Source: a virus. Taken from it: a stretch of DNA of 50,252 nt. Below, in pieces: positions 39,992 through 45,983 of the stretch (positions are counted from its first letter, which is position 1; the number at the start of each line of letters is the position of its first letter). Both the position numbers and the translations under genes were made by a program. The stretch lies in IMG/VR virus record IMGVR_UViG_3300027985_000559, positions 1 through 50,252 of that record; one strand, 5' to 3'. The notes beneath the pieces were generated by a model, which was not told the DNA's origin, ran no database searches, and saw nothing but the letters and a program-made list of their open reading frames with translations.

Positions 39992-40491
39992 GCGTGTGCT
40001 CGTTCCCTGACTGCGGCTACCCCCACTACGGGCATGGCCTGTGCCGTGCCCACCTGTGGCAGCAGAACCACGGCATCCCGCTCCGACCCGTCCGCCGCCA
40101 GACCCGCGGCCAGCAGTGTGGCGTTGAGGGCTGCGACCGCAAGCACAAGGCGCACGGCTGGTGCGCCACCCACCTGTCGCAGTGGCAGAAGGGCTACACG
40201 CCTGGCCAGCCCCGTCCCCGGCGCCGCAAGCAGACCCCCGCAGCCCCGAAGCCCATGCCTGCCACGTGGGACCAGACCGCCACCCGCCAGAAGGCGACCA
40301 AGGCTCAGCCGACCGCGTTGATGCGGACCGTGGTGTTCGTGCCGCCCACCCAGCCGGTCACCCTGGCCGCGGTCCTGCAGGGCCTGATCGACCGCGGCGC
40401 CGAGGATCTCGCTGAGGCGCTCGGTGTGGCTCCGGACCAGATCCGCGCCGAGGCGCAGCGGTGGCAGTGGTGGGAAGGCACGGCCGCCTGA
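39988..40491 (+). CDS. Double zinc-knuckle protein without a nuclease core
   Basis: 167 residues from ATG 39988. Two repeats CSFPDCGYPHYGHGLCRAH and CGVEGCDRKHKAHGWCATH are the same zinc knuckles that begin the HNH proteins at 3123, 30612 and 33904, but the HNH core is missing. In its place are a basic linker and a helical C-terminal domain with LAAVLQGLIDRGAEDLAEAL and GVAPDQIRAEAQ. It looks like the DNA-binding part of a homing endonuclease reused as a regulator. Inference. Confidence 0.7.
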   Translation: MSVCSFPDCGYPHYGHGLCRAHLWQQNHGIPLRPVRRQTRGQQCGVEGCDRKHKAHGWCATHLSQWQKGYTPGQPRPRRRKQTPAAPKPMPATWDQTATRQKATKAQPTALMRTVVFVPPTQPVTLAAVLQGLIDRGAEDLAEALGVAPDQIRAEAQRWQWWEGTAA

Positions 40492-40697
40492 TGCTCACCC
40501 TCACCGACATCTACGACTCCAGCCACGACCCGGCCACAGCGGCCCTTCCGCCGATGCTCGACATCCGACATCTCGACCGACAGGACGTCGCGCACGCCAC
40601 GTGCCCGCCCGATATCGATCCCGCGTTGTGGTGTGCCCTCATGCTCGAACCCCTTCCGCCCTGCACGAACCACAGCATGGCTGGGAGGCGGCGATGA
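40491..40697 (+). CDS. Small unknown protein
   Basis: 68 residues, ATG overlapping the previous stop by one base and overlapping the methyltransferase ATG by 4 nt. LTLTDIYDSSHDPATAALPP near the N-terminus; one CxxH-like end (CTNHSMAGRRR). No family recognised. Confidence 0.55.
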   Translation: MLTLTDIYDSSHDPATAALPPMLDIRHLDRQDVAHATCPPDIDPALWCALMLEPLPPCTNHSMAGRRR

Positions 40698-42370
40698 GCG
40701 TCGACGTGTTCCGCCGGCCAGGCGCCGAACTCGACTGCACGGACTTCTTCTGCGGAATCGGCGGGTCGTCCACCGGCCTCGTGAACGCTGGCTGGCAGGT
40801 CAAACTCGCGGCGAACCACGACCAGACCGCGATCAACACCCACTCGGCGAACCACCCCGGTACCGAGCACATCTGCGCTGACCTGCAGACCGTCGATTAC
40901 CGCTACCTGCCCAAGACCCGGGCGCTGTGGGCGTCCCCGATCTGCACCGAGGTCAGCCCGGCCGGCGGGAAAGCGAAGCGCCGCACCGATCAGCCTTCGC
41001 TGTGGGAGGAACACGGCCACGTCCCCCAAGCAGCGTTCGAACGCACCCGCGTCACGTTCTGGGAGGTACTCCGGGCCGCCGAGGTCCACCGGTACGAGGT
41101 CATCATGCTGGAGAACGTCCTGGAGTCGTTCGACTGGGAACTCCTCCCCGTGTTCCTCGCTGGGTTGAAGACCCTCGGCTATGAGATCCAGACCGTCAAC
41201 GTGTCCGCGGCGCACGTCGGGGACGAGGGCAACGACCCGGCCGCGCAACTGCGGGACCGGGTGTACTGGGTGGCCAGGCTCGCCAGCATCCCCGCGTTTG
41301 ACCTGGATCCGCGGCCGCCCGCCTGGTGCGACCGGTGCGACGCGATCGTGACCGCTGTCCAGATGTGGAAGCCGCTCACCGTGAAGTCCCGGCAGTGGGA
41401 GGGGCAGCGCGCCGGGAAGTACAACCAACAGTATGTGTGGGGATGCCCGACTCACGGGACCCGCTGCGAGCCGCTGATCATGCCCGCCGCGACAGCGATC
41501 GACTGGACGGATATCGGCACCCGTATCGGTGACCGTGCCGAGCTCGGCATGCGCGACCTCGCCCTGCGGACGATGCGCCGGATCGAGATGGGGCTGGAGA
41601 TGATCGCGGACCCTGTGCTCATCGCCGCGGCGGGCAACACGTGGGACGCCGCAGCCGGGAAGGGCGGCAACTATCTGCGGGCTGTGGACCCGTACGGCTG
41701 GCCCATAGCCTCCGAGCAGGGCACCGCCACCCAAGGTGTCGCGATGAGCTTCACGATGGCGCACGGCGGACGCGCGACGCCCTACGACGTGACCGCCGAA
41801 CCGATGCGGACGTGGACCACCGCACAGACCGAGGCGCTCGCCGTGACGGAGCCGTTCGTCACCATGCTGCGACGCAACGGCAAGCCCAGCCGCGTCAGCG
41901 AACCCATGGCGACCTTCACAGGGGGTGGCTTCCACCACGGCCTGACGGTCCCGCCCGGCGCGTTCATCAGCAAGCACCATGGCGGCTACGCAGACGGCGA
42001 CCCGAGCATGAACAGCCCAGTCACCCGGCCGCTACCCACCATGACCGCCCGCGGTTCCCGCAGCCTGGTCGTCCCGTTCCGGAAGGGTGAACGGCCACAC
42101 AGTCCCGGCGCGCCGTTCTCGACCCTCGCGACCCGGCAGCAGCACGGGCTAGCTGTCGCTGGTGCCGGACGGATCTCCGTTGAGGACTGCTATTTCCGCA
42201 TGCTCTCGCCGCGCGAGGCCGCGAACGGGCAGCGGTTCCCGCGCGACTACATCCTGACCGGCACGCTCGGTGAGCAGCAGTTGGGTGCGGGGAATGCGGT
42301 GGCGTGCAACGTGGCGCAGTTCATCGGCCGGCGGGTCGCTGAAGGCCTCGATTCGAGGAGCGCAGCATGA
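40694..42370 (+). CDS. DNA (cytosine-5) methyltransferase with variant motif IV
   Basis: 558 residues from ATG 40694. C5-methyltransferase motifs in order: FCGIGG (19-24, motif I), SPICTEVSPAGG (81-92, motif IV with catalytic Cys 84 but PIC in place of PC), MLENV (near 137-141, motif VI), RDRVYW (near 188, motif VIII) and GNAV (near 532, motif X). A long segment of ~340 residues between VIII and X, with CDRCDAIV and CPTHGTRC Cys pairs, may be a target-recognition domain with a zinc site. It would methylate cytosine in phage DNA, probably against host restriction. No cognate nuclease is present. Confidence 0.85.
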   Translation: MSVDVFRRPGAELDCTDFFCGIGGSSTGLVNAGWQVKLAANHDQTAINTHSANHPGTEHICADLQTVDYRYLPKTRALWASPICTEVSPAGGKAKRRTDQPSLWEEHGHVPQAAFERTRVTFWEVLRAAEVHRYEVIMLENVLESFDWELLPVFLAGLKTLGYEIQTVNVSAAHVGDEGNDPAAQLRDRVYWVARLASIPAFDLDPRPPAWCDRCDAIVTAVQMWKPLTVKSRQWEGQRAGKYNQQYVWGCPTHGTRCEPLIMPAATAIDWTDIGTRIGDRAELGMRDLALRTMRRIEMGLEMIADPVLIAAAGNTWDAAAGKGGNYLRAVDPYGWPIASEQGTATQGVAMSFTMAHGGRATPYDVTAEPMRTWTTAQTEALAVTEPFVTMLRRNGKPSRVSEPMATFTGGGFHHGLTVPPGAFISKHHGGYADGDPSMNSPVTRPLPTMTARGSRSLVVPFRKGERPHSPGAPFSTLATRQQHGLAVAGAGRISVEDCYFRMLSPREAANGQRFPRDYILTGTLGEQQLGAGNAVACNVAQFIGRRVAEGLDSRSAA

Positions 42371-43195: not shown

Positions 43196-43368
43196 ACACT
43201 CTCCCGATCCCTCTCCCCCACCGAGTCAAGATCCGCAAGCGGGGCGGTGTCCGGCCGTGGTGCGCCGAATGCTCCTGCGGCAAGTGGGGATGGCGGTCCC
43301 GCCACTGGCACCTCGCGATGGTGATGACCGAGGGCCACCTGATCAACCAGTCCGGGAAGGAAGCCTGA
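43192..43368 (+). CDS. Small Cys/Trp-rich protein
   Basis: 58 residues, GTG overlapping the previous stop by 4 nt. RPWCAECSCGKWGWRSRHWH suggests a zinc knuckle. Its stop overlaps the initiator ATG by one base. Unknown. Confidence 0.6.
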   Translation: MNTLPIPLPHRVKIRKRGGVRPWCAECSCGKWGWRSRHWHLAMVMTEGHLINQSGKEA

Positions 43369-44261
43369 TGCGGATCAGATCCACCAAGCCCGAGTTTTGG
43401 TCCTCCCGCACCGTCTGCGAGGTCGACTGGGAACACCGGTTCGTCCTGAAAGGCCTGGAGTCGTACGTCGACGACAACGGTGTCGGGAAGGACGACCTCG
43501 AGCTGATCTGTGGCGACGTGTGGAAACGGGACCTGGCTCGCGAGGGCTCGCGAACCCTCGCGAGGGTGTCCGAAGCGTTGACCGCCCTCCACCAGGCCGG
43601 TCTGATCTGGCGATACGAGGTAGATGGCGAGCGTCTGCTGTACGTGTCGTGCTGGGAGAGCATCCAGAAGATCGACAAGCCGAGTGCGGGACGTTTCCCC
43701 AGGCCAGACGGCACTTTCGGCTACAAGGAGTCCCAGATTCGCGAGTGTATCGCGAGCCCTCGCGAGCCCTCGCGAGCCCTCGCGACTGGAACAGGGGAAC
43801 AGGGGAACAGGGGAACAGGGGAACAGACTTCTTCGTCGGAGATCGCAAGCGATCCCGACCTTGCCCACGAAGACGTCGACGACCATCCCCGCCCGGAGAT
43901 CGTCGAACTCTGCGAGCACCTCGCTGAACGGGTCAGAACGAACGGGCACAAGGCCCAGCCGGGAAAGCGCTGGCATCGCGCGTGCCGGCTCCTGCTCGAT
44001 GTCGACGGCCACGACCCCGATCAGGTCAGGAGGGCGATCGACTGGGCGACCGCGGATCCGTTCTGGTCGGCGAACATCCGGTCCATGCAGACCCTCCGCG
44101 AGAAGTACTCCACCCTGCAGGCCCAGGCGCAGCGGCGCGGCAAGGCCGAACCGGAACGCCCGAAGTATCTCGACGCCGAACCGCCGAACTACGACATCCC
44201 GGACGCCGTGAAGGTGACCCGTGAGCAGTTCCAGCAGATGATGGCGGCCGCTCGTGAGTGA
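43368..44261 (+). CDS. Replication initiator (replisome organiser-like)
   Basis: 297 residues. The N-terminal ~120 residues are a winged-helix domain of the type starting phage replication initiators: RIRSTKPEFWSSRTVCEVD, FVLKGLESYVDDNGVGKDD. The C-terminal ~130 residues are helical (DPDQVRRAIDWATADPFWS) and end just before the helicase gene. The linker between (residues ~125-155) is low complexity because it is encoded by tandem DNA repeats. Gene order initiator-DnaB-SSB supports replication. The C-terminus probably loads the helicase, like lambda O/P or DnaD. Confidence 0.78.
   Translation: MRIRSTKPEFWSSRTVCEVDWEHRFVLKGLESYVDDNGVGKDDLELICGDVWKRDLAREGSRTLARVSEALTALHQAGLIWRYEVDGERLLYVSCWESIQKIDKPSAGRFPRPDGTFGYKESQIRECIASPREPSRALATGTGEQGNRGTGEQTSSSEIASDPDLAHEDVDDHPRPEIVELCEHLAERVRTNGHKAQPGKRWHRACRLLLDVDGHDPDQVRRAIDWATADPFWSANIRSMQTLREKYSTLQAQAQRRGKAEPERPKYLDAEPPNYDIPDAVKVTREQFQQMMAAARE
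43538..43825. repeat. Iteron-like array inside the initiator gene, probable replication origin
   Basis: The palindrome TCGCGA occurs at 43538, 43548 and 43558 (exact 10-bp period), and again at 43739, 43750, 43760, 43770 and 43780, the last four again 10 bp apart as CCCTCGCGAG units. It is followed at once by four copies of GGGGAACA at 43794-43825. Ten-bp spacing puts all sites on one face of the helix. Origins with iterons inside the initiator gene are known from lambda O. Origin function is inference. Confidence 0.7.
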
Positions 44262-45516
44262 CGACACCGCAACCCAGGTCGAACAGGCGCTCCTCGGCTG
44301 CATCCTCACCGGCTTCCCGATGGACACTCTGACGATCAGTGGCGGCGACTTCTATCAGCCGCGGCACGAACTGATCTGGGACGCGTGTGCGAAGATCACG
44401 GCCGAGGGCAAGAAGCCCGACCCGATGCTCGTCGCCGCGAAACTCGGCACGGACGTCCAGCGGGCCGGCGGCCACGTGTACCTGTCCGACCTGATCGCGG
44501 CCCCGTCCGTCGGGTCGAACGCGACGTGGTACGCCGAACAGGTCGCAGAGCAGGCGGACCGACGGCGCATGCGGGACGCTGCACAGCAGGTCGCCCAGCT
44601 CGCCGACCAGCCGGGCCGGGTCGAGGACCTGATGGAGTCGTGCCGCGCACTGTTCGATCAGCGACGTGGCCAGTCGAATCTGAGCAGTCTCGCGACGATT
44701 GTGCCCCGCCTCGTCGATCTGGTGCAGGACGGGAAGACCGCTGGCCTGTCGACTCCGTGGCCGGACCTGGACCGGTGGATCCGTGGCCTGCACCCTGGCT
44801 TGCTGTACGTGATCGGTGCCCGGCCCGGTGTCGGGAAGTCGCTGATCGGGCAGAACCTCGCCGCGCACTTCTCCCGGGTCCACGACCTGTCGGCGTTCGT
44901 GGCGTCGCTGGAGATGCCTGAGGACGAGTTGGGCACCCGGTTCCTCGCCGCCGATTCGGGGGTCGACATGGGGGCGATGGAGACGGGGAACCTGTCGCCG
45001 CGGCAGTGGGAGTTGCTGGCGCAGGGCACGAGCCGGCTGATGCAGTCGAAGGTCGCGATCTGTGACGACTCGTGGCAGTCGATGGCAACGATCCGTGCCG
45101 CCGTCCGGGACGTCGCCAGGCGGGGTGATCTGGGCCTGATCGTCATCGACTACATGCAGCTCGTGAAACCACATGACTCCCGGGTGCCGCGGGAGCAGCA
45201 GGTGGCGGAGATCTCGCGGGACTGCAAGCGGATCGCGAAGGAGTTCGGGGTGCCGCTGGTGGCGTTGGCGCAGCTGAACCGGGCGTCTGCGTCCCGGTCG
45301 GACAAGACCCCGACGCTGACCGACCTGCGGGAATCGGGCGCGATCGAGGCCGACGCGGACGTGGTCGCTTTGCTGCACCGCGAGGAGCCGACGGACGAGG
45401 CCTGCCAGGTCCACATCGCGAAGAACCGTTCCGGCCCGCTGGGCCGGTGCGAACTGATCATCCAGGGCGCGTTCGCCCGGGTCGTTTCATCCATCAACCA
45501 TTCGAGGGAGTACTGA
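44254..45516 (+). CDS. dnaB: DnaB-type replicative helicase
   Basis: 420 residues, GTG overlapping the initiator by 8 nt. N-terminal DnaB domain ([29 protein letters not shown]), then a RecA-like ATPase domain with Walker [10 protein letters not shown] (near 188-196), [12 protein letters not shown], Walker B VIDYMQL (near 297) and [21 protein letters not shown] motifs of the family. It unwinds the phage origin and fork as a hexamer. Slightly shorter than bacterial DnaB (about 450-470), as usual for phage forms. Confidence 0.9.
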
Positions 45517-45518
45517 GC

Positions 45519-45983
45519 ATGTCCGGAGAAACCATCATCACTGTCGTCGGGAACCTGACCGCCGATCCGGAGTTGAGATTCACCCCACAGGGGGCGCCGG
45601 TCGCGAACTTCACGGTCGCGTCGACGCCGCGCGTGTTCGACAAGCAGGCGAACGAGTGGCGGGACGGGGACGTGATGTTCCTGAACTGCCAGGTGTGGCG
45701 GAACTCTGCCGAGAACGCGGCCGAGTCCCTCACGAAGGGCATGCGGGTGATCGTGCAGGGCCAGTTGAGATCCCGCAGTTTCGAGACCCGGGAGGGCGAG
45801 AAGCGGACCGTGTTCGAGGTCGTGGTGGAAGAGGTGGGTCCGTCGCTGCGGTACGCGACGGCGACCGTGACTCGTTCGCAGCAGGGCCAGCAGGGTGCGG
45901 GCTGGTCGAAGGACAGGGCTGAGGCGAAGGCCGGCCGAGACCCGTGGGCCACCGCCGGTGATGACCAGGCCCCGCCGTTCTGA
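45519..45983 (+). CDS. ssb: Single-stranded DNA-binding protein
   Basis: 154 residues, ATG 45519. OB-fold SSB pattern: [70 protein letters not shown]. The C-terminus ends DDQAPPF, the acidic tip that binds partner enzymes. Starts two bases after the helicase gene. It supports phage replication and ERF-mediated annealing. Confidence 0.93.

Follow-up and report, generated by a model that had tools for sequence, protein, structure and literature searches.

Helically phased palindromes in a viral initiator gene as a probable replication origin

To our knowledge, replication origins have yet to be mapped in most actinophages and many prophages. A virus record from IMG/VR (IMGVR_UViG_3300027985_000559; all 50,252 nucleotides analyzed here, hereafter the window) raises the question of whether such an origin might be read from a gene itself. 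The gene matching a replication-initiator profile contains eight copies of the palindrome TCGCGA in two groups, which the initial annotation had proposed to be an origin overlying a plain low-complexity linker. We asked whether these sites are a by-product of the encoded peptide or act as DNA, and, if the latter, in what role.

The initiator gene and its phased palindromes

The 297-residue product matched the phrog_2149 'replication initiation protein' profile over residues 1–260 (E = 1.5e-85). Its C-terminal part, residues 169–262, matched phrog_391 'replication initiation O-like' (E = 2e-13), and residues 62–266 matched phrog_2514 'DnaD-like helicase loader' (E = 6e-19); a Pfam search of the protein gave no match. 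AlphaFold2 confidently predicted a winged helix for residues 1–120 (mean pLDDT 95.6, pTM 0.87), for which the best Foldseek matches were winged-helix DNA-binding proteins, including the initiator 4pt7, none of them at E < 1e-3, and a search for a sequence-related solved structure of the initiator found none. The next gene encodes a DnaB-like replicative helicase, presumably the one that would be loaded at the origin, and the single-strand DNA-binding protein ORF beyond it probably starts later than listed, because the match to the family does not begin until after residue 24. A large ORF at 40424–42370, upstream of the replication genes, looks by eye like a DNA cytosine methyltransferase; many Gordonia and Mycobacterium relatives likewise have methylase genes on the upstream side of the initiator.

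Table 1. Features of the candidate origin region (window coordinates).
Feature	Position	Strand	Basis or remark
Replication initiation protein gene (297 aa), candidate origin host	43368..44261	+	phrog_2149
N-terminal winged-helix DNA-binding domain (aa 1–120), predicted	43368..43727	+	AlphaFold2 and Foldseek
Iteron cluster 1, TCGCGA x3, 10-bp phase	43538..43563	.	Within winged-helix coding region
Codon of Asp103 (IDKP motif), candidate specificity residue for half-site base 3	43674..43676	+	
Iteron cluster 2, TCGCGA x5 (11, 10, 10, 10 bp)	43739..43785	.	Kept at gene positions ~340–456 in homologs
Purine-rich repeat tract, GGAACA plus (GGGGAACA)x4, candidate strand-opening or helicase-loading element	43788..43826	+	TRF
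DnaB-like replicative helicase, next gene	44254..45516	+	PF03796, E = 4.7e-72; PF00772, E = 4.2e-14
Single-strand DNA-binding protein ORF	45447..45983	+	PF00436, E = 1.3e-31

The eight sites begin at 43538, 43548 and 43558 and at 43739, 43750, 43760, 43770 and 43780, all at the annotated places. The claimed ten-bp phasing holds for most gaps (10 and 10 bp in the first cluster; 10, 10 and 10 bp in the second), but one gap, the first of the second cluster, is 11 bp. The clusters are separated by ~180 bp, and both lie 170–420 bp into the coding region. Although the whole record contains 50 copies of TCGCGA, no phased pair was found in the window outside the initiator gene. Shuffling the synonymous codons of the gene left a mean of 0.83 copies (maximum 5 in 5000 shuffles) versus the 8 observed, and 0.016 phased pairs (maximum 2) versus the 6 observed; the eight-site array is therefore real, and the peptide is not its source. 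The 'plain linker' of the initial annotation did not stand: the peptide over the array (SPREPSRALA and GTGEQGNRGTGEQ) is for the most part imposed by the DNA, and the first cluster lies not in a linker but in the code for the DNA-binding domain. The repeats annotated downstream of the second cluster are indeed present, as four exact copies of GGGGAACA at 43794–43825 preceded by a partial copy, GGAACA, at 43788 (TRF: period 8, 4.9 copies, 100%). The last TCGCGA is 2 bp from the partial copy and 8 bp from the first full one.

Conservation of the sites and the adjoining tract

Replication initiation proteins of Gordonia and Mycobacterium phages (phrog_2149 and phrog_1408) are direct homologs, several with identical TCGCGA positions, and the records of those examined here carry no origin annotation. 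TCGCGA occurs at gene positions 171, 181, 191, 372, 383, 393 and 403 in the Gordonia phages Lucky10, Sidious, Malisha, EMsquaredA and Agueybana; the window gene shares all seven and has one more at 413. Purky, Ksquared and Xavia carry it at 159, 170 and 180 and at 372, 383 and 393, and Panchino, with 11-bp spacing, at 189, 200 and 211 and at 378, 389, 400 and 411. When the whole records of the window and 19 phages were scanned, all phased pairs fell within the initiator gene, except at Agueybana 2166.

For a broader comparison we used 110 non-redundant homologous genes from IMG/VR and GTDB genomes (N-domains <85% identical), selected as proteins through the peptide pattern RIR[ST][IT]KPE(F) alone, with a query alignment that included some loci initially found by DNA pattern. 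These genes contained 391 copies of TCGCGA versus 77.2 ± 7.4 under synonymous shuffling (z = 42.6, with the runner-up palindrome at about 4), and 201 pairs at 10/11 bp versus 1.8 expected. Distances within 60 bp were almost exclusively 10/11, 20–22, 30–33 and 41–44 bp, with almost none of 4–9 or 12–19 bp. Because phased copies occurred in all three reading frames (79/117/139), the peptide does not explain them. Across the family the clusters occupied gene positions ~159–214, in the winged-helix code, and ~340–456, in the linker. Helical phase between them was coherent, but confounded by common ancestry. Homologs retaining the peptide without TCGCGA or its spacing would have told against the origin proposal; the opposite was observed, with the 10/11-bp spacing kept while peptide and frame varied. 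On these comparisons the phased sites are conserved at the DNA level, evidently under selection as DNA, and the proposal of a candidate origin gains strong support.

Scans of IMG/VR by DNA pattern tied the sites to the same gene family. Three TCGCGA at 10/11 bp were found at no fewer than 119 loci; of the arrays at those 119, 101 were in initiator-family ORFs and two more in truncated family members; for the off-phase control at 12/13 bp, 3 of 48 were in such ORFs. The scoring HMM had been extended with members from the first scan; the original HMM, built from the window and the 19 phages, accounted for 69 of the first 80 loci. Triples of TCGWCGA fell in initiator-family ORFs in 104 of 120 cases and TCCSGGA in 31 of 78, and a scan for three perfect TCASTGA gave 25 loci, none in the family, most members with Asn at residue 103 having only pairs of perfect sites in each cluster. 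In a per-gene test of 192 candidate palindromes, 78 of the 110 genes exceeded the 99% null, the best motif being TCGCGA in 57, TCGNCGA in 12, TCASTGA in 6, and TCCSGGA, TCCGGA and AGASTCT in one each; 8 further genes were at the threshold with TCASTGA. Genes with fewer than two TCGCGA had 56 phased TC(N2-3)GA triples versus 0.7 expected, and no off-phase triples at 8/9, 12/13 or 14/15 bp. In relatives without TCGCGA, the two cluster positions were occupied by other TC(N2-3)GA sites, and some family members (for example, L242, L348 and L353) had no recognizable array.

The scans also returned phased TCGCGA arrays in two genes for non-family proteins (L136:2256-3275 and L144:13032-13721), one protein having a Lin1244_N domain (PF14297, a different replication-initiator family) and the other being HTH-like with no family match; convergence is possible. 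Seven loci (L148, L149, L152, L162, L169, L171 and L184) have TTCGCGAA arrays with 12-bp spacing beside rather than inside initiator-family genes, in AT-rich stretches adjoining GC-rich sequence. The initiator N-domain also has relatives in plasmid records of Klebsiella, Escherichia, Salmonella and Enterobacter (H123-H148), where they are labelled DnaT-like or hypothetical proteins; some of these records may be phage-plasmids.

The purine-rich tract was also conserved. The best tandem repeat (period 5, 7 or 8) outscored all 20 codon shuffles in 100 of 110 homologs, and it mostly began 12–14 or 23–24 nt past the last recognized iteron core; in the window, which has one extra exact core, it begins 2 nt past the last. 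Tracts were 86% purine versus 52% gene-wide, with units that were chiefly GGGGAACA but included GGGGAGCA, GGGAACA, GGGAA, GGAAA and TGGAG. This conserved adjacent element is GC-rich, not AT-rich as looked for in a strand-opening element. Motifs of G3+ were present in 36 genes versus 12 expected, the 5-bp tracts of Proteobacteria being less G-rich, and a G-quadruplex role is no more than a possibility. Otherwise different initiators have swapped C-terminal halves (Ksquared, Xavia, Panchino, Donovan and Xeno have LTLVEGGVGGDP... in common; L008-L026 genes), and because the swap junction is at the GEQGNRGT tract, recombination may join the genes at the tandem tract.

Residue 103 and the sequence of the sites

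Residue 103 lies in the IDKP motif after the wing. Its identity tracked the third base of the half-site: all 75 genes with D, E or S there (69, 5 and 1, respectively) had TCG..CGA sites, and all 14 with N had TCA..TGA sites. Family-wide it was the sole aligned column that fully separated the site types, with mutual information equal to the full entropy (D/E/S versus N), and because its codon is outside both clusters, the covariation is not a coding echo. Among 20 held-out homologs, D103 accompanied TCGCGA arrays in 14 of 16 (two had no recognized array), N103 accompanied TCASTGA in 2 of 2, and the single E103 accompanied TCCSGGA, as in L201 of another branch. Three homologs that are 72–76% identical (L383, L411 and L413) have N, E and D together with TCASTGA, TCCSGGA and TCGCGA, respectively, and the same kind of tract downstream. 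The 104 family members from the TCGWCGA scan had D (91) or E (13).

The relationship is less tidy elsewhere. Family members from the TCCSGGA scan had H (14), D (8), N (3), E (2), S (2), K (1) or a gap (one), and given this mixture (H, S, E, N and D) no simple one-residue rule applies outside the main clade. One D103 member (L476) mixes TCGCGA and TCCSGGA, and in the SYVDD clade two further columns also separate the site types perfectly. In a subfamily (L460, L481, L496, L500 and others) HQGLHKR replaces HQRIDKP and the sites are TCCSGGA triples, which suggests that a His at the specificity position pairs with TCC sites. An independent-contrast test placed 8 motif switches on the best tree, with 1 supported independent pair and 9 starred branches, so that tree support for independent switches is weak. 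The code we propose from these alignments would pair D103 with TCG, N103 with TCA and, often, E103 or S103 with TCC. The covariation lends indirect support to the view that the sites are bound by the encoded winged-helix protein.

The origin reading and its alternatives

The explanation that the repeats are just a consequence of a low-complexity peptide or of codon bias has next to no probability left: the stretch does encode Ser/Arg/Ala/Glu-rich and Gly/Glu/Gln-rich peptide, but synonymous shuffling preserves that peptide and loses the sites, phased copies use three frames, and cluster 1 is within a folded domain. Shuffling and three-frame use rule out this origin of the repeats. Short direct-repeat arrays can have other duties, as in the parS loci of mycobacteriophages (PMC7157519), and the sites might serve partition, incompatibility, packaging or a host factor unrelated to the encoded protein; we consider this very unlikely, as the sites covary with initiator residue 103 across phyla and the arrays follow the initiator gene family whatever the host.

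Somewhat less remote, yet still improbable, is that the arrays, although cognate to the initiator, serve chiefly as an autoregulatory operator or a transcription roadblock and that the origin lies somewhere else. Many HTH proteins repress themselves, the sites are in the initiator's own gene and covary with residue 103, and some relatives have the 12-bp-spaced arrays beside the gene. Both clusters, however, lie well within coding sequence and not at a promoter, repression needs no purine-rich tandem tract at a set distance, the record has no other phased pairs, and the origins of lambda and SPP1 sit at exactly such a place. Autoregulation may accompany an origin role.

In lambda, the origin is inside the initiator gene O, with iterons bound by O and an adjoining strand-opening region (PMC7466680); in SPP1, gp38 binds direct repeats in gene 38 beside an unwinding element, gp39 being the loader and gp40 the DnaB-like helicase (PMC6316719). 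As in lambda and lambdoid Stx phages, repeated sites lie mid-gene beside a candidate strand-opening tract. The iterons of lambda are imperfect and longer, about 19 bp, whereas the sites here are 6–7-bp palindromes at one-turn spacing in two separated clusters, one of them within DNA-binding-domain code. The DNA-binding domain showed no sequence homology to lambda O; only the C-terminal part matched O-like profiles. As in SPP1 oriL, the repeats are inside the initiator gene and a DnaB-like helicase gene is adjacent, and here the own-gene repeats are conserved as DNA; SPP1 has a second origin, oriR, about 13 kb away, whereas no second array was found in the window. The unwinding elements of lambda and SPP1 are AT-rich, unlike the GC-rich purine tract, although its constant place beside the iterons resembles theirs. 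For the extrachromosomal cluster A mycobacteriophages Miko, Rachaly and Jeeves, in which a small repA segment supports replication, the origin was suspected to lie within repA or a short way upstream, but no repeats were found and the origin was left open (PMC7157519). Miko RepA is likewise an HTH initiator, but it belongs to another family (phrog_35571); it gave no match to the HMM, so that a link is rejected, and the Miko repA gene has no TCGCGA-type phased arrays.

We consider it highly probable that the locus as a whole is a replication origin lying inside the gene for its own initiator, and the eight sites very probably serve as that origin, as first proposed. We infer a course of binding, cooperative assembly, tract opening, helicase loading and origin use in which the N-terminal winged helix would bind TC(N2-3)GA palindromes, here TCGCGA, whose 10–11-bp spacing would set neighboring protomers on one helix face. 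A nucleoprotein complex built over both clusters would then open the adjoining tandem tract, with recruitment of the DnaB-type helicase encoded next door falling to the O/DnaD-like C-terminal part. GC skew had no extremum at 43.6 kb and a minimum near 25.6 kb; in a phage genome with strand bias this is not informative.

Origins inside initiator genes are already known as a kind (lambda O, SPP1 gene 38). Our search of the open-access literature found no paper on TCGCGA phage origins or these arrays, and as far as those papers show, the variant, its breadth and the covariation of site and residue appear new. We think it reasonably likely that they mark a widespread class of origin, defined by own-gene TC(N2-3)GA sites at one turn, two clusters, a tract and a residue-103 code, in which origins and their specificity are readable from sequence across phyla and have changed in concert. 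In phages and prophages of Actinobacteria, Proteobacteria, Planctomycetes and others, such origins could be located from the gene sequence, which would supply hundreds of natural initiator–site pairs for probing a protein–DNA recognition code. The arrays are also a clear instance of a protein shaped by function at the DNA level, its linker and part of its folded domain being written around the phased sites.
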